DNA of 64,000 bases, from NCBI RefSeq assembly GCF_003350925.1, contig NZ_KZ857180.1:1-64000 (forward strand). The letters are read 5' to 3'. Shown piece after piece: positions 3,202 to 32,883 of the stretch; the stretch's first letter is position 1; each line of letters opens with the position of its first letter. The notes below the pieces were generated by a model, which saw nothing but the letters and a program-made list of their open reading frames with translations, had not been told where the DNA came from and searched no databases. The DNA comes from Dyella tabacisoli (lineage in GTDB: Bacteria; Pseudomonadota; Gammaproteobacteria; Xanthomonadales; Rhodanobacteraceae). The position numbers and the translations under genes are program-made.

Positions 3202-3253
3202 GGTGCGGCAGGGTTAGCTGCTGTTTGCGGAAGAGTGATGGTTTGCCGCGAGA

Positions 3254-3296
3254 ATGCCCCCCCTCCCAGCCTCCCCCTGCAAGCAGGGGGAGGGGC
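3254..3296. repeat. REP-like hairpin
   Basis: CCTCCCCCTGC-AA-GCAGGGGGAGG preceded by CCCTCCCAG. It abuts the left end of structured repeat copy B, as the equivalent hairpin does at copy C. Confidence 0.75.
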
Positions 3297-3562
3297 ACGA
3301 CGCTCGCGCTTTTGACGTTGGCTCTTGACCTTGGGGCCCCTGTGCGTCGGTGAGGGGCGGACGACAAGGCCCGCAGGGGACTCGGCATGGATGCCGAGTC
3401 CTTTTCGCCAGTGCATGGATGCACTGTCGAAAAGCCCGGCCGACCCTCACAAGCCCGAAGGGCGACGCACCGGGGTGGCCTTCTCTTTGGTTACTTTCTC
3501 TTGGCCACTCAAGAGAAAGTGACTCGACCACCGGCAGGTGGCCGAAAGCCCGCCGCAGGCGA
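3297..3562 (+). repeat. Structured dispersed repeat, copy B
   Basis: Same element as copies A and C with different stem sequences that still pair. Stem I is 3378-3387/3392-3401 (GGACTCGGCA with its complement, loop TGGA). Stem II is 3402-3407/3428-3433 around 3409-3415/3420-3426. Stem III is 3493-3503/3510-3520. Stem IV is CCACC-GGCA-GGTGG. The right end is 35 bases from the stop codon of the minus-strand gene at 3598. The copy separates the two TonB-like paralogs and fills most of the 396-base gap. Confidence 0.85.
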
Positions 3563-3597
3563 ACCCGGTCGCCATAACACTCAAATCAAAGCCCCAC

Positions 3598-4497
3598 TCA
3601 CAACCCCTTCGCCGCCCTCCCCCGCAAATCCGCATCCACCGATCGCGTCGGCGTATCCACCGGACACCCCTGCGGCAACGGCTTACCATCACGATAAATC
3701 GCGATGCACTCCTCATCGCTAAGCGGCTTGAGCGGATTCGTGTCCGCCGTCAACGGCTTCGCCGGCGCCATGCTGAGCCGCGCATCGCGACTCTTGGGCG
3801 AAGGCGGTGGCGGCGGATCCTGACAACCCGTGAGGAAAGTGCACTTCAGGTGCACGCCATGCGGCAATGCGACGTCATGCGGCTTGGTCACCGTCTCCAC
3901 TACATGCCGCATCGCGGCGTTGCCTAGCGACTCGCCGGGCGGCGGAAAATACTGCTCGAAACGCGTGGATTTATATTTCACCGGATCGCTATGGTGCATG
4001 ACCTGCATATCGCCATCCGCCTCCGGGCTACGCGTCACGTAAGCCGGCGCCGTACTCGCCGCAGCGGCCGGCAACAAGACCTGGCCGCTCTTGTCGAACA
4101 AGGCCGGGGCCGGCGTCGGTGGCGTGACCGGGCCGCCAGGCATGCTCACTGTCATGGCGTTCTTGGCCGGCGCCTCACGCACAGCCGCCGGGCGTACGAC
4201 GACATGTTGCTGAATCGCCACCGCTGGCGGCGGTGCGATCGGTGGCGGCGCCGTCTGCAACCGGCGCGGAATCAGCCGCACCTGCAAGGCATCGTCCATA
4301 CGCCTATGCCCCTCGGGCGACGAGGGCAGCAGCTTCATCTCATACCAGGTCACCCAGACGAACAACCCATGCAGCAAGAACGCGATACCCAGCCCCAGCC
4401 ATAGACGCCGACGATCAGGCGGCGGCTTGCGCCAGCGCAGTTGATGCAGCATCGCTCGGGTCGGGCCATCCAACGGCGCCAGACCGCGCATGCGCAC
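3598..4497 (-). CDS. TonB-like envelope protein, short paralog
   Basis: About 299 residues. A basic cytoplasmic N-terminus (WRKPPPDRRR) leads into one membrane helix near residues 33-52 containing AFLLHGLFVW, again with a histidine in the helix. A short proline-rich periplasmic linker follows. The C-terminal module has YKSTRFE, PPGES, LPHGVHLKC, a GC pair and PLPQGC, matching the module of the longer protein downstream. The GTG at 4495-4497 is the first standard start after an upstream stop; the frame is open further up only with non-standard codons. The two genes are probably a tandem duplication that diverged in linker length, later separated by a repeat. A TonB-like role is inferred from topology only. 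Confidence 0.7.
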   Translation of the reverse strand: MRMRGLAPLDGPTRAMLHQLRWRKPPPDRRRLWLGLGIAFLLHGLFVWVTWYEMKLLPSSPEGHRRMDDALQVRLIPRRLQTAPPPIAPPPAVAIQQHVVVRPAAVREAPAKNAMTVSMPGGPVTPPTPAPALFDKSGQVLLPAAAASTAPAYVTRSPEADGDMQVMHHSDPVKYKSTRFEQYFPPPGESLGNAAMRHVVETVTKPHDVALPHGVHLKCTFLTGCQDPPPPPSPKSRDARLSMAPAKPLTADTNPLKPLSDEECIAIYRDGKPLPQGCPVDTPTRSVDADLRGRAAKGL

Positions 4498-4865: not shown

Positions 4866-6905
4866 GTGTCGTACACCACGGAAAGCATCCGCAACGTCAT
4901 TCTTGCTGGTCATGCCAGCACCGGCAAAACCACTCTGTTTGAAGCCTTGCTGCATGCCGGCGGCACCATTCAAACGCAAGGTTCAGTAGAACGCGGCACG
5001 ACCCAATCCGATACCGACGCCCAGGAAAAGGCCCGCGGCCATTCCATCGATAGCTGCATCGCCGCGATCGACCATGGCGGCTGTCATATCAATCTGATCG
5101 ACAGTGCTGGCTATGCGGATTTTCGCGGTGCCAGCCTGGCCGCGTTCGCCGCAGTGGAAACCGTGGCGATCGTGGTCAATGCCGTCAATGGCATCGAGCA
5201 TGGCACCCGCCGCATGATGGAGCATGCGAAACAACGCGGCCTGGCGCGTTTGCTGGTCATCAACAAGATCGATTTCGACGGTGCCAAATTGAGCGCGCTG
5301 GTGGATGCGTTACGCGAGGAGTTCGGCAGCGAGTGCCTGCCGATCAACCTGCCCGCGCAAGGCGGCCGGCAAGTGCTGGACTGCTTTTTCCATCGCGATG
5401 GCAACACCGATTTCTCTTCATTGGCCCAAGCCCATCAGCGCATTCTCGATCAAGTGGTGGAGATCAACGAGAACGTGATGGGTGCGTATCTCGATGCCGG
5501 TGAAGAGGCGCTGACGCCGCAGCAACTGCACGACGCCTTTGAGCAATGCCTGCGTGAAGGGCATCTGGTGCCGATTTGTTTTGTCAGTGCGCGCACCGGC
5601 GCTGGCGTGGCCGAGTTACTTAATATCACCGAACGCCTGCTGCCCAATCCGGCCGAAGGCAATCCGCCGCCCTTCCTCAACGATGGCGATCAACCCATTG
5701 CGGTCAGTACCGACCCGACCAAGCACGTGATCGCCGACGTGTTCAAGATCGTCAACGATCCCTTTGTCGGCAAGCTCGGCGTATTCCGTGTATGGCAAGG
5801 CACGATACGCCGCGACACGCAGTTGCTTATCGACGACGGCCGCAAACCCTTCAAGGTCGGCCATCTATTTCGCCTGCGCGGTAAAACGCACGAGGAAATC
5901 GACAGTGCGATTCCCGGCGACATCGCCGCCGTCGCCAAGATAGAAGAAATTCATTTCGACGCCGTGCTGCACGACTCGCACGACGAAGACCGCATTCACG
6001 TCCGCCCCCTGCCCTTCCCGCAGCCGATGTTCGGCCTGGCGCTGGTGCCCAAGCACAAAGGCCAGGAGCAGAAACTGTCGCAAGCGCTCAGCCGGCTCGC
6101 CGAAGAGGACCCGTGCTTTCGGATGGAGCATCACAAGGAACTCAACGAGACCGTCATACGCGGCCTTTCCGACCTGCATCTGAAAATCATGCTGGAGCGA
6201 ATGAAGGATCGCTACGCGGTCGAGGTCATCACCCATCCGCCGCGCATTGCTTATCGCGAGACCATCGCCGGCAAAGCCGAAGGCCACCATCGGCACAAGA
6301 AGCAAACCGGCGGCGCGGGCCAGTTCGGCGAAGTGTTTCTGCGAGTGGAGCCGCTGGAGCGCGGCGCCGGCTTCGAGTTTGTCGATGCGGTCAAAGGCGG
6401 GGTGATTCCAGGCCAGTATCTACCGGCTATCGAAAAAGGCGTGCGTCAGGCGATGGAAGGCGGCGCTATCGCCGGCTACCCGCTGCAAGACCTGCGCGTC
6501 GTGGTCTACGACGGTAAATACCACCCCGTCGACTCAAAGGAAGTCGCCTTTATCAGTGCCGGCAAAAAGGCGTTTCTCGACGCTATCGGCAAGGCGCGCC
6601 CGATCGTGCTGGAGCCGATCGTCGATGTCGAGGTATCGATCCCCGAGGCAAATGTCGGCGACGTCACCGGCGGCCTTGCCGGCAAGCGCGCCCGCATTAT
6701 GGGTACCGATGCGCTACGCGGCGGCGAACTGGTCATCAAGGCCCAAGCCCCCCTGGCCGAACTCACCGACTACCCCACCGAACTCAAGGCCATGACCGGT
6801 GGCCGCGGCCGCTACAGCCTCGATCTCAGCCACTACGAGCCAGTGCCACTGCCAGTACAGAAGCAACTCAGCGAGGCGTGGAAACCGCACGCCGAGGAGG
6901 ACTGA
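4866..6905 (+). CDS. EF-G-like translational GTPase
   Basis: A 679-residue paralog of elongation factor G. The GTPase domain has G1 GHASTGKTT (about 15-23), G3 DSAGYADF (about 79-86, canonical DTPGHVDF) and G4 NKID (about 133-136). Domain II, III, IV and V sequences follow, including a clear domain IV start (GGAGQFGEV) and domain V (EPIVDVEVSIPE). The switch I region lacks the usual RGITI motif, as in the EF-G-like subfamily distinct from the housekeeping fusA product of the str operon. The GTG at 4866 is chosen because GGGAGGG lies just upstream; an in-frame ATG at 4809 has no such site. A role in ribosome handling is likely but the exact step is unknown. Confidence 0.85.
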   Translation: MSYTTESIRNVILAGHASTGKTTLFEALLHAGGTIQTQGSVERGTTQSDTDAQEKARGHSIDSCIAAIDHGGCHINLIDSAGYADFRGASLAAFAAVETVAIVVNAVNGIEHGTRRMMEHAKQRGLARLLVINKIDFDGAKLSALVDALREEFGSECLPINLPAQGGRQVLDCFFHRDGNTDFSSLAQAHQRILDQVVEINENVMGAYLDAGEEALTPQQLHDAFEQCLREGHLVPICFVSARTGAGVAELLNITERLLPNPAEGNPPPFLNDGDQPIAVSTDPTKHVIADVFKIVNDPFVGKLGVFRVWQGTIRRDTQLLIDDGRKPFKVGHLFRLRGKTHEEIDSAIPGDIAAVAKIEEIHFDAVLHDSHDEDRIHVRPLPFPQPMFGLALVPKHKGQEQKLSQALSRLAEEDPCFRMEHHKELNETVIRGLSDLHLKIMLERMKDRYAVEVITHPPRIAYRETIAGKAEGHHRHKKQTGGAGQFGEVFLRVEPLERGAGFEFVDAVKGGVIPGQYLPAIEKGVRQAMEGGAIAGYPLQDLRVVVYDGKYHPVDSKEVAFISAGKKAFLDAIGKARPIVLEPIVDVEVSIPEANVGDVTGGLAGKRARIMGTDALRGGELVIKAQAPLAELTDYPTELKAMTGGRGRYSLDLSHYEPVPLPVQKQLSEAWKPHAEED

Positions 6906-6911
6906 GGTAGA

Positions 6912-7175
6912 GGGGAACGGGGAACGGGGAACGGGGAACGGGGAACGGGGAACGGGGAACGGGGAACGGGGAACGGGGAACGGGGAACGGGGAACGGGGA
7001 ACGGGGAACGGGGAAAAGCCTAAAAAGCAGAAGCAAAAAAGCAAGCGAAAAAACAAAGAAAAATCAAAAAAGAACGCGACATCACAGCCATCACTCAAGC
7101 CGCATGTTCCCCGTTCCCCATTCCCCGTTCCCTGCCTTACCTCCGTTCCCTGCTCTTTGCCCCCCCTCGGCCCCG
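6912..7175. repeat. Composite heptamer repeat: GGGGAAC array, A-rich spacer, inverted GTTCCCC runs (copy 1)
   Basis: Fourteen perfect GGGGAAC units run from 6912 to 7009, plus a partial GGGGAA. A purine-rich spacer (AAAAGCC, AAAAAGCAG, CAAAAAAGCAA and similar) reaches about 7085. From about 7106 come several GTTCCCC/ATTCCCC units on the other strand sense. The arms can pair into a very long hairpin, and four or more G-runs with three-base loops fit a G-quadruplex pattern. A second copy with seven units lies at 15745-15985. It fills most of the gap between the EF-G-like and Gre-like genes. It is not coding. Confidence 0.9.
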
Positions 7176-7237
7176 CTTGAGAAAGACCCATGCCAGAACT
7201 ATGTGGAGAGGTAGCAGTACACCTGTGGGAGGACGCT

Positions 7238-7744
7238 ATGAGTCGAGCTTTTGTTAAAGATCAGGATGACGCCAATCGCGAGGCGTTACCTGAGATTGCG
7301 CTGAGTGAGCACCCCAACTACACCACCTCCCACGGGCTGGCGCATTTGCGTGAACGCCTGGCCGCCACGCAGGCGCGGCACGATGCATTGAAAGCATCCG
7401 ACGACGCGCTGTCGCAACAGAACGAGTTGGCCATGCTGGAACGTGAGCTGCGCTGGCTGGGGGCGCGCGTCGCCAGTGCGATCGAAGTGGATCTGGAGCG
7501 GCAACCGAACGACCGCGTAGCCTTCGGTGCCCGCGTCACCGTGGATAGCGATGAGGGTGAGCAGCATTACCGTATCGTCGGTGAAGACGAGACCGATGCC
7601 GAGCACGGCGAAGTCAGCTATGTCTCACCGCTGGCGCGCGCGTTGATCGGCGCGCGGGTCGGCGAAGAAGTGATCTGGAAACGGCCGGCGGGCGATTTGT
7701 TGATTACGGTGACGGCTATCGACTATGACGATCATGATGCCTAG
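7238..7744 (+). CDS. GreA/GreB-family transcription factor
   Basis: A 168-residue protein. The C-terminal half has the Gre FKBP-like domain pattern (VAFGARVTVDSDEGEQHYRIVG; SPLARALIGARVGEEV), known to sit on the RNA polymerase secondary channel. The N-terminal half is predicted to be a helical coiled coil (about 40-100). Canonical GreB carries GDRSENADY at the coiled-coil tip with two acidic catalytic residues; here the corresponding stretch reads DDALSQQNE, so cleavage-factor activity is not assured. The ATG at 7238 follows GGGAGG and gives MSRAFVKD; the upstream ATG at 7190 lacks support. The gene stands alone downstream of a heptamer array. Confidence 0.8.
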   Translation: MSRAFVKDQDDANREALPEIALSEHPNYTTSHGLAHLRERLAATQARHDALKASDDALSQQNELAMLERELRWLGARVASAIEVDLERQPNDRVAFGARVTVDSDEGEQHYRIVGEDETDAEHGEVSYVSPLARALIGARVGEEVIWKRPAGDLLITVTAIDYDDHDA

Positions 7745-15209: not shown

Positions 15210-15680
15210 CTAACGGCCCTTCGGCTTGAGCAAGGTGCCGCAGCACTTGGGCGAGCCGCACAGGCACAGCCACAGCTTTTTAAGGCGTGCGGTATGCGGC
15301 ACGTCAAGCGTAATGCCGTAATCGTAGGTCAGCTCCTCGCCGGGCTTGATCTTGCGGATCGCCTCGATCAGTACCCGGTCCTTGCGCGGATCGCCGCTGG
15401 CGCTTTCTTCGATGACCGCACGGCAATTAGGCTCGCAACTGTGGTTGATCCAGCGCGCGCTATTGCCATGCTGATTGGCGTCCACGATGTATTCGTCGTT
15501 GAGCGTGAACAAAAAGGTATGCCCCGTCTCGCCGCCGTCGCCGTACAGCTCGTCGGCCTCGTCGTTGGTCACTAAGGTGCCTTTGTACTGAATCACCTGC
15601 TCGCCCTTGGCGATGGCGCTAACGGCAAAAACACCATTGCCGTGGATCGGCGAACGGCGAGCAACGATACGTCGGGTCAT
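15210..15680 (-). CDS. SET domain protein-lysine methyltransferase
   Basis: 156 residues spanning almost only a SET domain. Motifs visible are GNGVFA (near 15-20), the pseudoknot sequence WINHSCEPNC (about 77-86), EELTYDYG (about 115-122) and a post-SET-like cysteine cluster CLCGSPKC (about 139-146). The known family activity is S-adenosylmethionine-dependent lysine methylation; the post-SET cysteines normally bind zinc with the pseudoknot cysteine. The bacterial substrate is unknown. The gene is on the same strand as the MoxR operon but separated by 95 bases. A composite heptamer repeat lies directly upstream. Confidence 0.9.
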   Translation of the reverse strand: MTRRIVARRSPIHGNGVFAVSAIAKGEQVIQYKGTLVTNDEADELYGDGGETGHTFLFTLNDEYIVDANQHGNSARWINHSCEPNCRAVIEESASGDPRKDRVLIEAIRKIKPGEELTYDYGITLDVPHTARLKKLWLCLCGSPKCCGTLLKPKGR

Positions 15681-15744: not shown

Positions 15745-15985
15745 GGGGAACGGGGAACGGGGAACGGGGAACGGGGAACGGGGAACGGGGAACGGGGAAA
15801 AGCCTAAAAAGCAGAAGCAAAAAAGCAAGAGCAAAAACAAAGAAAAATCAAAAAGAACGCGGATCTGCAATATCCCCTCGAACCTCATGTTCCCCGTTCC
15901 CTGTTCCCCGTTCCCCGTTACCTAGCTTTACCTCCGTTCCCCGTTCCCTGCTCTACCCCCCATCCTGTTCCCCGCTCTTCCTCCC
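15745..15985. repeat. Composite heptamer repeat (copy 2)
   Basis: Seven perfect GGGGAAC units (15745-15793) plus GGGGAA, then a spacer nearly identical to that of copy 1 (AAAAGCCTAAAAAGCAGAAG and onward), then GTTCCCC-type units from about 15888 to 15985. It lies between the divergent SET and lipoprotein genes and ends about 32 bases before the lipoprotein ATG. It differs from copy 1 mainly in unit number. Confidence 0.9.
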
Positions 15986-16017: not shown

Positions 16018-16500
16018 ATGAAACGAGTACTCCGCTGTATCGCAATGGGCGCACTGGTCGCCGGCCTGGTCGCCTGCGGCCCGCCGCGCAAAAGCGTATT
16101 TCCGCCGGCCGTGAGCATTCAGGAAATGAATGTGCGGCCCGATGGGCAATGGCGGCTGACCCTGCGCATCCAGAACAACAGCTATTCCGGCATGGGTTTT
16201 CACAGTATCGAGGGCGAGCTGAAAGTGGCCGACGGAGTACCCGTACGTCTGCATCACAGCTTCGATCTGGACATCCCCGCCTTTGCCGGCGACGTCACCC
16301 AGATCGACGTGCTGCCCACGACGGAAATGAATCAGGCGCTGAAGGCCGTCGCCGCCAAAGGCAGCGCCGGCTCGCTGCCCTATAGCGTGATCGGCCACAG
16401 CAACGCCAAGCCCGAGCAAGAAAAAGAAAACCGCGACTTCGACTTTCACGGCAGCGGCTGGCTCTCGCCGGTGCCGGGTATTTCCAACACTTACCGCTGA
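16018..16500 (+). CDS. Lipoprotein with LEA-type (WHy-like) domain
   Basis: 160 residues. The signal peptide ends in a lipobox (LVAC, Cys at about 20), so a lipid-anchored envelope protein is expected. The residue after Cys is Gly, which favours the outer membrane. The body (VSIQEMNVRPDGQWRLTLRIQNN, then alternating beta pattern to about 115) resembles the LEA14/WHy beta-sandwich; that is a motif-level judgement. AGGTGAT sits properly before the ATG. The acyl-CoA dehydrogenase gene starts 44 bases after the stop and may be cotranscribed. Confidence 0.75.
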   Translation: MKRVLRCIAMGALVAGLVACGPPRKSVFPPAVSIQEMNVRPDGQWRLTLRIQNNSYSGMGFHSIEGELKVADGVPVRLHHSFDLDIPAFAGDVTQIDVLPTTEMNQALKAVAAKGSAGSLPYSVIGHSNAKPEQEKENRDFDFHGSGWLSPVPGISNTYR

Positions 16501-19046: not shown

Positions 19047-19089
19047 GCCCAACAAAAAATCGCGAGCCTCCAAGCTCGCGGCAAGACCG

Positions 19090-19128
19090 CACCCCCTCCC
19101 AGCCTCCCCTGCTAGCAGGGGGAGGGGC
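19090..19128. repeat. REP-like hairpin
   Basis: CCTCCCCTGC-TA-GCAGGGGGAGG preceded by CCCTCCCAG, abutting structured repeat copy C. Confidence 0.7.
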
Positions 19129-19417
19129 GAAAGCGCAGCGCTCGCTGCTTTTGACGTTGATCTTGATCTTGCTTTTGCTCTTGACCCTGGGGCCCCTGTG
19201 CGTCGGTGAGGGTCGGACGACAAGGCCCGCAGGGGCATCGACATGGATGTCGATGCCTTTTCGCCAGGGCAGGAAGCCCTGTCGAAAAGCCCGGCCGACC
19301 CTCACGTACCCGAAGGGCGACTCACCGGGGTGGCCTTCTCTTTGGTTACTTTCTCTTGGCCACTCAAGAGAAAGTGACTCGACCACCGGCAGGTGGCCGA
19401 AAGCCCGCCGCAGGCGA
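19129..19417 (+). repeat. Structured dispersed repeat, copy C
   Basis: The longest complete copy. It carries a direct GATCTT-rich stretch near its left end, then GGGGCCCC. Stem I is 19234-19243/19248-19257. Stem II is as in copy A. Stem III is 19348-19358/19365-19375. Stem IV is CCACC-GGCA-GGTGG, followed by the CGCCGCAGGCG terminus. The right end is 34 bases from the stop codon of the minus-strand RND gene. With the REP hairpin it fills the 405-base gap between the convergent GNAT and RND genes. Confidence 0.87.
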
Positions 19418-19451
19418 TCAACCTAGCCCCACACACCCAAACAAAAGATCA

Positions 19452-30552: not shown

Positions 30553-32883
30553 CTACTTCAAACCGTTGGCCATCGCCTTAATCAGCGTGCCATTCGCATC
30601 GTCGCCGCTGAACTCCCACGAGAATGCACCACCCAGCGACTGTGACTTGAGATAAGTCATCTTGCGCTGGATATTGGCCGGGTCGTCGAAGCTCCAGAAG
30701 GTGCTGCCGTTGAAGATCCAGTGCGCGCCGGTAGTGGTGTCGTCAAAGGCCGGATAACCCAGATTCATCAGCACTTTGTAGTCTTCGATGCCGGCCTCGT
30801 AAGTACCGGGTGCAGCCGTGCTGCTTTGCTGGAACAGGCCGTTGTTGGCGTTGGGCACACTGGCCCAGCCGCGACCGTAAAAGCCGATACCAAGATTGAT
30901 CTTGGAGGCAGGCATGCCAGCCGCCAGGAAAGCCTGAATCGCATCGTTAGTGTCGTATTGGGCGGCATCGCCGGTCGACGGGTCGCCCAGTGGCTTGTAC
31001 AGCGCGGAATGGAAGTTGGTTGTCGTTTCCCAGGCACCATGGAAGTCATAAGTCATCACATTGATGAAATCGACCGACGACTGGTACTGCGAGGGTTGCG
31101 TCACGCGGATCTTGTCGACACCCGCACCGGCGGCGATGGTAAGCAGCAGGCCCGGACGCACCGCGTCGAGCTGACGACGGAACTCGGCCAGCAAGGCGGT
31201 GAAATTCGCCGTATCGGCACTGGTGCCGCAGCTCAGGCCGCAAGCGGCCGGATATTCCCAATCGATGTCGATACCGTCGAACACGCCTGCCGCGGCACCC
31301 GCGCCGCCTGCACTGTCGGTCGCCGGCAGATTGCCCTTGATATAGGCATCGATACAAGAGGCCACAAAGGCCTGGCGATTCGCCGGCTGCGCCGCGCTGG
31401 CGAAACCGCGCGACCAGGTCCAACCGCCGAGCGAGATCAATACCTTCAGCCCCGGATGCTTGGCTTTAAGTTGCTTGAGCTGGTTCCAGTTGCCGCGCAA
31501 CGGCTGATTCCATACATCGGCCGTACCGTCCACGCTGTCGGCCGAGCCGTAGGACTTGGTGTAGTCGGCGTAAGCGTCGCCACCTGCACCGGTGTTGGGA
31601 TCGGCAGGCTGAGTCACGCCTACTTCGCAAACGTTGTTGCGCACGTTGCCGAAGGCATAGTTGATATGCGTAAGCACCGCGGCCGAACCACTGGTCTCGA
31701 TGTTCTTCACCTGATAGTTGCGGGCATAGATGCCCCACTGCGTGAAGTAACCCAGCACCCGCGCCGATGAAGTACCGCCGGTGGAGGTCTTGGCCGTAAT
31801 CGCCGAACTCTGTGCGGATGCATTGCCGGCATTGTCGCGCGCACGCACCGTGTAGCTATAGCTGGTGTTGGCACTCAAGCCGGTATCGGTGTAGCTGGTG
31901 GTGGTGCTCGAACCGACCAGGCTGCCGCCGCGATAGATGTCGTAACCGGCCACGCCGCTGCCACCCGCGTTATCCGTCGAGGCCGCCCACGATAGCGAGA
32001 TCGTGCTCGATGTCTGCGCGGTGGAAACCAGGCCTTGCGGCACACTGGGCGGCGTGGTGTCCGCGCTGGTCTTGGCGGTGATCGCCGTGCTCTGCGCCGA
32101 AGCATTGCCCGCCACGTCGCGTGCACGCACGGTATAGCTATAGCTGGTGTTGGAGCTGAGGCCGCTATCGGTGTAGCTGGTGGCGGTACTCGAACCGACC
32201 AGGTTGCCGCCACGATAGATGTCGTAGCCGGCCACACCGCTGCCACCGGGGTTGTCGGTCGAAGCCGTCCACGACAACGAAATACTGCTCGATGTCTGCG
32301 CGGTGGAAGCCAAACCCTGCGGCACGCTGGGCGGCGTGGTGTCGCCGGAAGTGGACACCGTGATATTCACATTTGCCGAAGCTCCGGTGAGGCCGCCATT
32401 GTCGGTCGCCACGGCTTTCAGCGTGTAGTTGCCAGCCTGCACATTGCTCCAGGTCACCGTATAGGGCGAGGCTGTAGCGACACCGAGCGAGGCTGTACCG
32501 TTGAAAAACTCAACCTTGGTAACCGTGCCGTCGCTGTCTTGCGCTGCCGCGCTGATAACAATATTGGCCCCGGCGGTGAAGGTGGCGCCGTTAGCCGGTG
32601 CGGTAATGCTGGCTGTCGGCGGCTGATTGGGGCCGGTGCTGCAACCGCCCTGGTCCTGATACCAGCCACAGCTAGGACAGTAATCGGGTGGTGTATTCCA
32701 GATCGAGGTGAGCGCTTGGTACAAATGGTTTTTGTAGACCATGTGATCGCCCGCGCTGTAAATCGCGGTAGCGCTCCAGGCGGCCACACCGGCACAGTTC
32801 GCGCTTTGCGCCTGGGCCGGATTACTCCATAAGGTCATCGGCACGAGTGCCAACATCAATAACAGTCTCAACAGGATGCGCAT
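30553..32883 (-). CDS. Secreted modular chitinase, glycoside hydrolase family 18
   Basis: 776 residues. In order: signal peptide (about 1-26, AQA/Q), chitin-binding CBM5/12 module (about 29-80, AWSATAIYSAGDHMVYKNHLY and cysteines), a bacterial Ig-like domain (about 88-176), two nearly identical fibronectin type III modules (about 180-272 and 274-366, each 94 residues), then the GH18 barrel (about 375-776). The catalytic motif DGIDIDWE lies at 536-543, Glu543 being the proton donor. It should cleave chitin outside the cell. Transcribed alone; a perfect palindrome upstream may be its operator. Confidence 0.95.
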   Translation of the reverse strand: MRILLRLLLMLALVPMTLWSNPAQAQSANCAGVAAWSATAIYSAGDHMVYKNHLYQALTSIWNTPPDYCPSCGWYQDQGGCSTGPNQPPTASITAPANGATFTAGANIVISAAAQDSDGTVTKVEFFNGTASLGVATASPYTVTWSNVQAGNYTLKAVATDNGGLTGASANVNITVSTSGDTTPPSVPQGLASTAQTSSSISLSWTASTDNPGGSGVAGYDIYRGGNLVGSSTATSYTDSGLSSNTSYSYTVRARDVAGNASAQSTAITAKTSADTTPPSVPQGLVSTAQTSSTISLSWAASTDNAGGSGVAGYDIYRGGSLVGSSTTTSYTDTGLSANTSYSYTVRARDNAGNASAQSSAITAKTSTGGTSSARVLGYFTQWGIYARNYQVKNIETSGSAAVLTHINYAFGNVRNNVCEVGVTQPADPNTGAGGDAYADYTKSYGSADSVDGTADVWNQPLRGNWNQLKQLKAKHPGLKVLISLGGWTWSRGFASAAQPANRQAFVASCIDAYIKGNLPATDSAGGAGAAAGVFDGIDIDWEYPAACGLSCGTSADTANFTALLAEFRRQLDAVRPGLLLTIAAGAGVDKIRVTQPSQYQSSVDFINVMTYDFHGAWETTTNFHSALYKPLGDPSTGDAAQYDTNDAIQAFLAAGMPASKINLGIGFYGRGWASVPNANNGLFQQSSTAAPGTYEAGIEDYKVLMNLGYPAFDDTTTGAHWIFNGSTFWSFDDPANIQRKMTYLKSQSLGGAFSWEFSGDDANGTLIKAMANGLK

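Follow-up and report, generated by a model that had tools for sequence, protein, structure and literature searches.

The stretch of Dyella tabacisoli DNA analysed here (64,000 nucleotides; hereafter the window) carries two elements, each made up of a GGGGAAC array, an A-rich core with a variable segment, and a C-rich inverted arm (Table 1). The first-pass annotation had counted 14 units in copy 1 and 7 in copy 2; both counts and both positions were reproduced, and every unit is perfect. The window has 27 two-unit GGGGAAC matches (one mismatch allowed), compared with an expectation of 0.03 from shuffled sequence; those on the minus strand at 7106-7126 mark the C-rich arm of copy 1, and a profile model of the core matched copy 1 at 7010-7119. 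The annotation had also described shared spacers and inverted arms: about 65 nt of the A-rich spacer are indeed nearly identical between the copies, but the next approximately 30 nt belong to different variant types, and the GTTCCCC arms, present from 7106 and 15889, are short and degenerate. Its two structural suggestions agree with what we found, as the G-rich strand fits a G-quadruplex (G4) pattern at the level of pattern and a hairpin between the arms is possible in silico (z scores of -2.9 and -3.2 on the two strands). G4 formation by GGGGAAC is predicted from this pattern and from related heptamers; in the accessible text of Rehm et al. (PMC4692102), circular dichroism shows G4 folding of (GGGAATC)n and of Nostoc heptamers.

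Table 1. Positions of the two GGGGAAC elements and of the genes beside them in the window
Feature	Coordinates	Strand	Remarks and evidence
EF-G-like (elongation factor G-like) gene, left of copy 1	4866..6905	+	lagging-strand gene; Pfam, NCBIfam, gene script
Copy 1 array, (GGGGAAC)14	6912..7009	+	14 perfect units; starts 6 nt past the EF-G-like stop codon
Copy 1 A-rich conserved core, then ~30-nt variable segment (one of several variant types)	7010..7105	+	40-copy alignment
Copy 1 C-rich inverted arm (GTTCCCC GTTCCCC ATTCCCC GTTCCC ...), plus trailing degenerate unit	7106..7157	+	
GreA/GreB-like gene, right of copy 1	7238..7744	+	Pfam, codon-usage gene script
SET-domain protein gene, left of copy 2, divergent from right neighbour	15210..15680	-	Pfam
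Copy 2 array, (GGGGAAC)7	15745..15793	+	7 perfect units
Copy 2 A-rich core and variable segment	15794..15888	+	alignment, core profile model
Copy 2 C-rich inverted arm and trailing degenerate GTTCCC(C/T) units	15889..15985	+	
Small lipoprotein-like gene, right of copy 2	16018..16500	+	no family match

For the Gre-like gene, the codon-usage script favours a start at 7238, which follows a GGGAGGAC ribosome-binding-like site, over one at 7190. Other repeats are also present in the window. The segment at 19072-19420, some 350 bases long, is another dispersed repeat; it is 77% identical to the D. silvatica loci L070 and L140, and its frames spell a ...KVTKEKATP-like string that recurs near 180-565 and 3214-3720; at 31786-32343 lie two 282-base tandem copies, 85% alike, which are perhaps repeats within a large protein gene.

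A dispersed, genus-specific family

A 291-base element query returned at least 40 long matches in the D. tabacisoli genome (G000; 5.07 Mb in 33 contigs), with 40 of 80 candidates scored, and the core-only profile model gave at least 61 matches there and at least 33 in D. silvatica (G001), of the same genus (150 of 1,513 and 150 of 1,346 candidates scored, respectively). Counted from the model matches among those 150 of 1,513 candidates, D. tabacisoli holds approximately 47 full or near-full cores. We aligned 41 of its copies, 40 of whose cores entered the formal alignment; loci L001 to L008, which overlap later loci, were left out of the counts. Relatedness of the spacers had been set beforehand as a test, and full alignment showed the spacers to be related, while the genome-wide search found a dispersed family. 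The claim that the two arrays are one family and not independent microsatellites thus stands, the same core recurring in the approximately 47 copies by both alignment and profile model. The two arrays are members of a non-autonomous interspersed repeat in which an A-rich core lies between a G-rich heptamer array and short C-rich inverted arms.

Each element reads as 4 to 15 GGGGAAC units, GGGGAAAAGCCTAAAAAGCAG...AAAAAAGAACGCGG, about 30 variable bases of few types, and CATGTTCCCC-like arms, in which perfect runs reach only 1 to 3 units across the 41 D. tabacisoli copies. In the copies of L010, L011, L013, L028, L030, L034, L037, and L039, the arm is followed by a second 3' module, itself truncated, whose appearance suggests recombination of the core at GCCTAAAAA. 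Among the 233 genomes of the family Rhodanobacteraceae searched, the core was found at good scores in two (D. tabacisoli and D. silvatica), with one further weak match, and an exact pattern scan of named genomes matched ten contigs, all of them from Dyella silvatica RBB189. GGGRAWC-type heptamer arrays are present in 82 of the 233.

By heuristic gene calling, 38 of the 41 copies are clear of called genes and three have a low-confidence overlap. The flanking genes are both antisense to the element at 19 copies, divergent at 11, convergent at 6, and both sense at 5, and arrays often adjoin stop codons; no regulatory position is conserved. The annotation had proposed that changes in unit number make the array a tunable element near promoters, and such a promoter-tuning or phase-variation role would suit copy 2, which sits between divergent genes, and the variation in unit number. 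We consider it very improbable, given that every gene arrangement occurs, that arrays so often end at stop codons, and that unit number is not conserved: at sites shared with D. silvatica it is uncorrelated between the species (rho 0.21, P = 0.38) and equal at only 3 of 20. It is likewise highly unlikely that the element is a structured RNA or a small peptide gene. The core is conserved, and a 13-codon frame lies on the other strand in 24 of the 40 D. tabacisoli copies with a scored start, but no base pair shows changes on both sides among 40 sequences, Rfam gave no match at the element, and in D. silvatica 8 of 14 scored frames are cut short within 7 codons, while a start is missing at that place from 12 of 26 copies.

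Orientation relative to replication

With the elements masked, the strand of the element and the local GC skew have opposite signs at 34 of 34 D. tabacisoli loci, spread over 13 contigs, and at 20 of 20 D. silvatica loci. The model matches agree: in D. tabacisoli they lie on one strand per contig throughout (at least 61 matches among 150 of 1,513 candidates scored), and each of the eight D. silvatica contigs with at least two matches has them all on one strand (150 of 1,346 candidates scored). Contig C1 looks like one replichore arm, because sixteen of its seventeen 20-kb samples have negative or near-zero negative skew, the remaining one being slightly positive. Leading and lagging strands were assigned from GC skew rather than from a mapped origin. 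Since the leading strand commonly carries an excess of G, according to the accessible part of one account (PMC3174206), GGGGAAC would be in the lagging-strand sense, and the C-rich strand would be the lagging template. Outside the elements, GGGG is commoner in the leading sense (2040 versus 1343 lagging-sense), AAAAAGC is strand-even (50 versus 49), and only 160 of 272 long open reading frames are on the leading strand; because GGGG leans leading, long frames are so weakly biased, and neighbouring genes occur in all four arrangements, neither composition nor transcription explains the polarity.

Heptamer arrays lacking the core provide a contrast. In a scan limited to at least three perfect units ending in a non-G base, eight matches were obtained in D. 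tabacisoli, and two arms of core elements were set aside; of the six core-less arrays, three are in the right orientation and three in the wrong one, compared with 41 of 41 right for cores (Fisher P = 0.0012). This 3-3 split is soft, as one 'right' array, on C12, has its longer arm on the other strand and another 'right' one, on C14, has equal arms. In the closed genome G017, from another genus, 10 of 17 GGGAATC arrays are lagging-sense, and in G007, also of another genus, 9 of 13 clusters are, including all seven of four or more units, some of which lie at near-zero skew. The G007 arrays hint that array length alone may carry some polarity. We rejected polarity as a general property of heptamer arrays on the G017 count and the mixed G007 result; strong polarity belongs to the core family, possibly alongside a weaker length effect in arrays. 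At G017:C1:462585 (L191 16585) there is a 33-unit GGGAATC array with a 21-unit one 13 kb off, both lagging-sense. Core-less inverted heptamer pairs with other interiors were found at L206 7348-7530, L207 7487-7640, and L208 7935-11290; the interior at L206 is similar to the one next to a D. silvatica array (L209), and at L208 two near-copies of one interior stand in tandem.

The main rival to polarity of insertion is orientation-specific survival, whereby elements insert both ways and those with the G-rich array on the lagging template are lost by G4-induced slippage. In E. coli, according to the accessible text of PMC10530614, (G3T)8 is far less stable in some backgrounds when the G-rich strand is the lagging template, so that the orientation observed here, with the C-rich strand as lagging template, is the stable one. 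The G-side perfect run also exceeds the C-side run in 41 of 41 D. tabacisoli and 25 of 26 D. silvatica copies, and the uniformly lagging-sense longer arrays of G007 fit the same idea. The opposing evidence, however, is that the array-free core model finds no reversed, array-poor copy among its at least 61 D. tabacisoli matches, that G017 retains wrong-way arrays of 6 and 8 units, that a (G4T)4 dimer shows the opposite asymmetry in E. coli as far as the same text goes (PMC10530614), and that GGGAATC has no strand preference in two Xanthomonas in the available part of Rehm et al. (PMC4692102). We therefore judge survival somewhat unlikely; because no reversed core was found, even with a short array, insertion polarity is favoured but not settled.

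A third possibility is that the elements are functional polar chromosome markers whose orientation is kept by selection for segregation or fork processing, as with KOPS and AIMS, octamers that are likewise strand-polar round the chromosome. Complete polarity, near-fixed sites, and an excess of close neighbours over uniform placement (11 versus 4.75 simulated, P = 0.003) would be in keeping with such a role. KOPS and AIMS are short, lie on the leading strand, and need no 200-bp body, whereas the elements here are 200 bp long, are carried on the lagging-sense strand, and probably overwrite each other; approximately 47 copies per 5 Mb is also sparse, and the core is limited to one genus. We give this reading little credence.

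Shared sites and probable exchange of cores

Of 26 sampled D. silvatica cores, 20 map by their flanks to a sampled D. tabacisoli core site; fewer than 2 would be expected by arithmetic from the approximately 6.5% of the D. tabacisoli genome covered by core loci, and since both sets of regions were picked around cores, this sharing is not an unbiased rate. One of the remaining six meets a D. tabacisoli array with a run of N, and five have no usable flank match in the D. tabacisoli DNA compared. In the other direction, 22 D. tabacisoli cores had both flanks mapped in D. silvatica, where reading the sequences by eye gave 19 full cores, one truncated core, and two sites without a core, whose flanks have diverged; a clean empty site with target features did not emerge from this comparison. 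The concern that the arrays are assembly artefacts is weakened by finding the same elements at the same sites in the independent D. silvatica assembly; it remains, and two D. tabacisoli copies have runs of N inside them.

Both flanks of eight D. tabacisoli core sites could also be mapped in G007. Seven of these have no array there, and the eighth, corresponding to the core in L032, carries a core-less 13-unit array in the same orientation at the exact site, with protein-level support for the site. This last case, together with heptamer arrays being present in 82 of 233 family genomes and good core matches in 2, is what would be expected if the arrays were ancient and vertically inherited and the core of each species had invaded them separately, with no ongoing conversion. 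We find this doubtful, as it sits poorly with the seven G007 sites without an array and would require separate invasions to have struck the same sites in 19 of 22 cases. With the core at good scores in just 2 of 233 family genomes, both of one genus, and arrays missing from seven of the eight G007 sites, gain by spread within that lineage is a simpler reading than loss elsewhere.

Site sharing is not accompanied by sharing of core sequence. Mean core identity is 0.702 at shared sites, 0.704 between non-matching copies of the two species, 0.833 within D. tabacisoli, and 0.678 within D. silvatica, and shared-site partners are no more alike than permuted ones (0.702 versus 0.703, P = 0.54). A 7-12 nt insert occurs in 19 of 26 D. 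silvatica cores and at 14 of 20 paired sites, in none of whose D. tabacisoli partners it is found (an insert of this size is present in 1 of 41 D. tabacisoli cores); conversely, a motif specific to D. tabacisoli is present at 10 of 20 paired sites and in none of the D. silvatica partners. On a poorly resolved tree, species labels need 5 changes, compared with approximately 21 when shuffled. Identical variants recurring across fixed sites would be difficult to attribute to separate mutations, so that transfer of sequence from site to site, in at least one of the lineages, is the most likely explanation of these alignments. A homogenised set of cores is evident in D. tabacisoli alone, because D. 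silvatica cores are more diverse among themselves than they are relative to D. tabacisoli cores, and the signs of conversion could also be imitated if shared arrays had been invaded independently.

Origin of the family and comparison with known repeats

The reading we prefer, at a probability of roughly 40%, is that the core spread by single-strand insertion at the lagging template, that its sites became nearly fixed, and that ectopic conversion between copies followed. The core would have spread in the common ancestor of the two species by a process limited to one strand at the fork, most simply one in which single-stranded element DNA inserts into, or anneals to, the lagging-strand template, and all copies would thereby carry GGGGAAC in the lagging-strand sense. 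With sites nearly fixed, ectopic gene conversion, for which the heptamer arms serve as guides, would then let copies overwrite one another, and replication slippage would change their unit number; no host role in gene regulation would be required. We infer this mode of spread from the observed copy number, polarity, site sharing, apparent transfer of cores in at least one lineage, and drift of array length. A more radical version, which we regard as improbable, is an enzyme-less homing repeat whose single-stranded copies anneal to lagging-template heptamer arms and replace the interiors of further copies; the sites would then be inherited and their content rewritten genome-wide in one orientation. 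The combination of uniform orientation, conserved sites, and overwritten interiors suggests an unusual route for a short DNA to copy itself round a chromosome.

We searched for enzymes that might serve the family. The reverse transcriptase profile RVT_1 (PF00078) had no match in D. tabacisoli or D. silvatica, with controls matched in 3 of 14, and origin by a retron, a group II intron, or another element bearing a reverse transcriptase was rejected on this result. The Y1 transposase profile PF01797 gave one weak match in D. tabacisoli and none in D. silvatica or G007. This match is a REP-associated tyrosine transposase (RAYT; G000:C12:11986-12423, L126 and L210; NF047646, 204 bits), flanked by its own GTTGGGGTT-type repeats and a few kb from three GGGGAAC elements. 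NF047646 likewise had no match in D. silvatica or G007, and distant Y1 types could escape both searches. A RAYT origin was rejected, as the sole RAYT of D. tabacisoli has its own REPs and is absent from D. silvatica. No shared Y1 transposase or reverse transcriptase partner was thus found among the searched genomes, which counts against the mode of spread preferred here.

Fork-coupled orientation has precedents in IS200/IS605 and Tn7 (PMC5371812), and in the accessible text of that paper the orientation of IS200/IS605-type elements and their non-autonomous derivatives follows replication via the lagging-strand template; here, too, orientation is coupled to replication. The present elements differ from these in that no shared Y1 transposase was found and that an eroding array forms their left end; inspection by eye revealed no conserved tetranucleotide at their flanks. 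REP, BIME, and REPIN sequences with RAYT transposases are, like this family, dispersed intergenic inverted repeats, and the REP-type GT(A/G)G foot (GTAG/GTGG 5' of a short hairpin) was absent from the aligned consensus on inspection.

The closest known relatives are the heptameric G4 repeats of Xanthomonas (GGGAATC) and Nostoc (GGGGA(C/T)T) described by Rehm et al. in 2015, whose accessible text assigns the xanthomonad repeats neither function nor origin (PMC4692102). Beyond that paper, our literature search, whose coverage took in few subscription journals, found no published account of the GGGGAAC family, its polarity, or its rewriting. Like the elements here, the repeats of that report are variable-length arrays of G-rich heptamers that are intergenic and often near stop codons; Xanthomonas has 70-75 convergent inverted pairs per genome, with most sites common to the species and unit number varying, again as here (PMC4692102, in the parts accessible). 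The tandem G-rich heptamer of at least four units in an intergenic position is likewise found here, although the unit is GGGGAAC rather than GGGAATC or GGGNATC. The same text reports no leading or lagging preference and mentions no shared core (PMC4692102), whereas in the family described here the orientation is lagging-sense throughout (34 of 34 and 20 of 20 loci), a genus-specific A-rich core lies between the arms, and core sequence moves between sites. The family offers a handle on the origin of heptameric G4 repeats, in that it turns attention to the replication fork and to the copying of sequence from site to site, and the presence of forward-only cores beside unoriented core-less arrays in one genome makes ideas about G4 and repeat stability testable in bacteria. 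We describe it firmly, and with moderate to low certainty as to mechanism, as a polar, rewritten, genus-specific variant of the known heptameric G4 repeat class.
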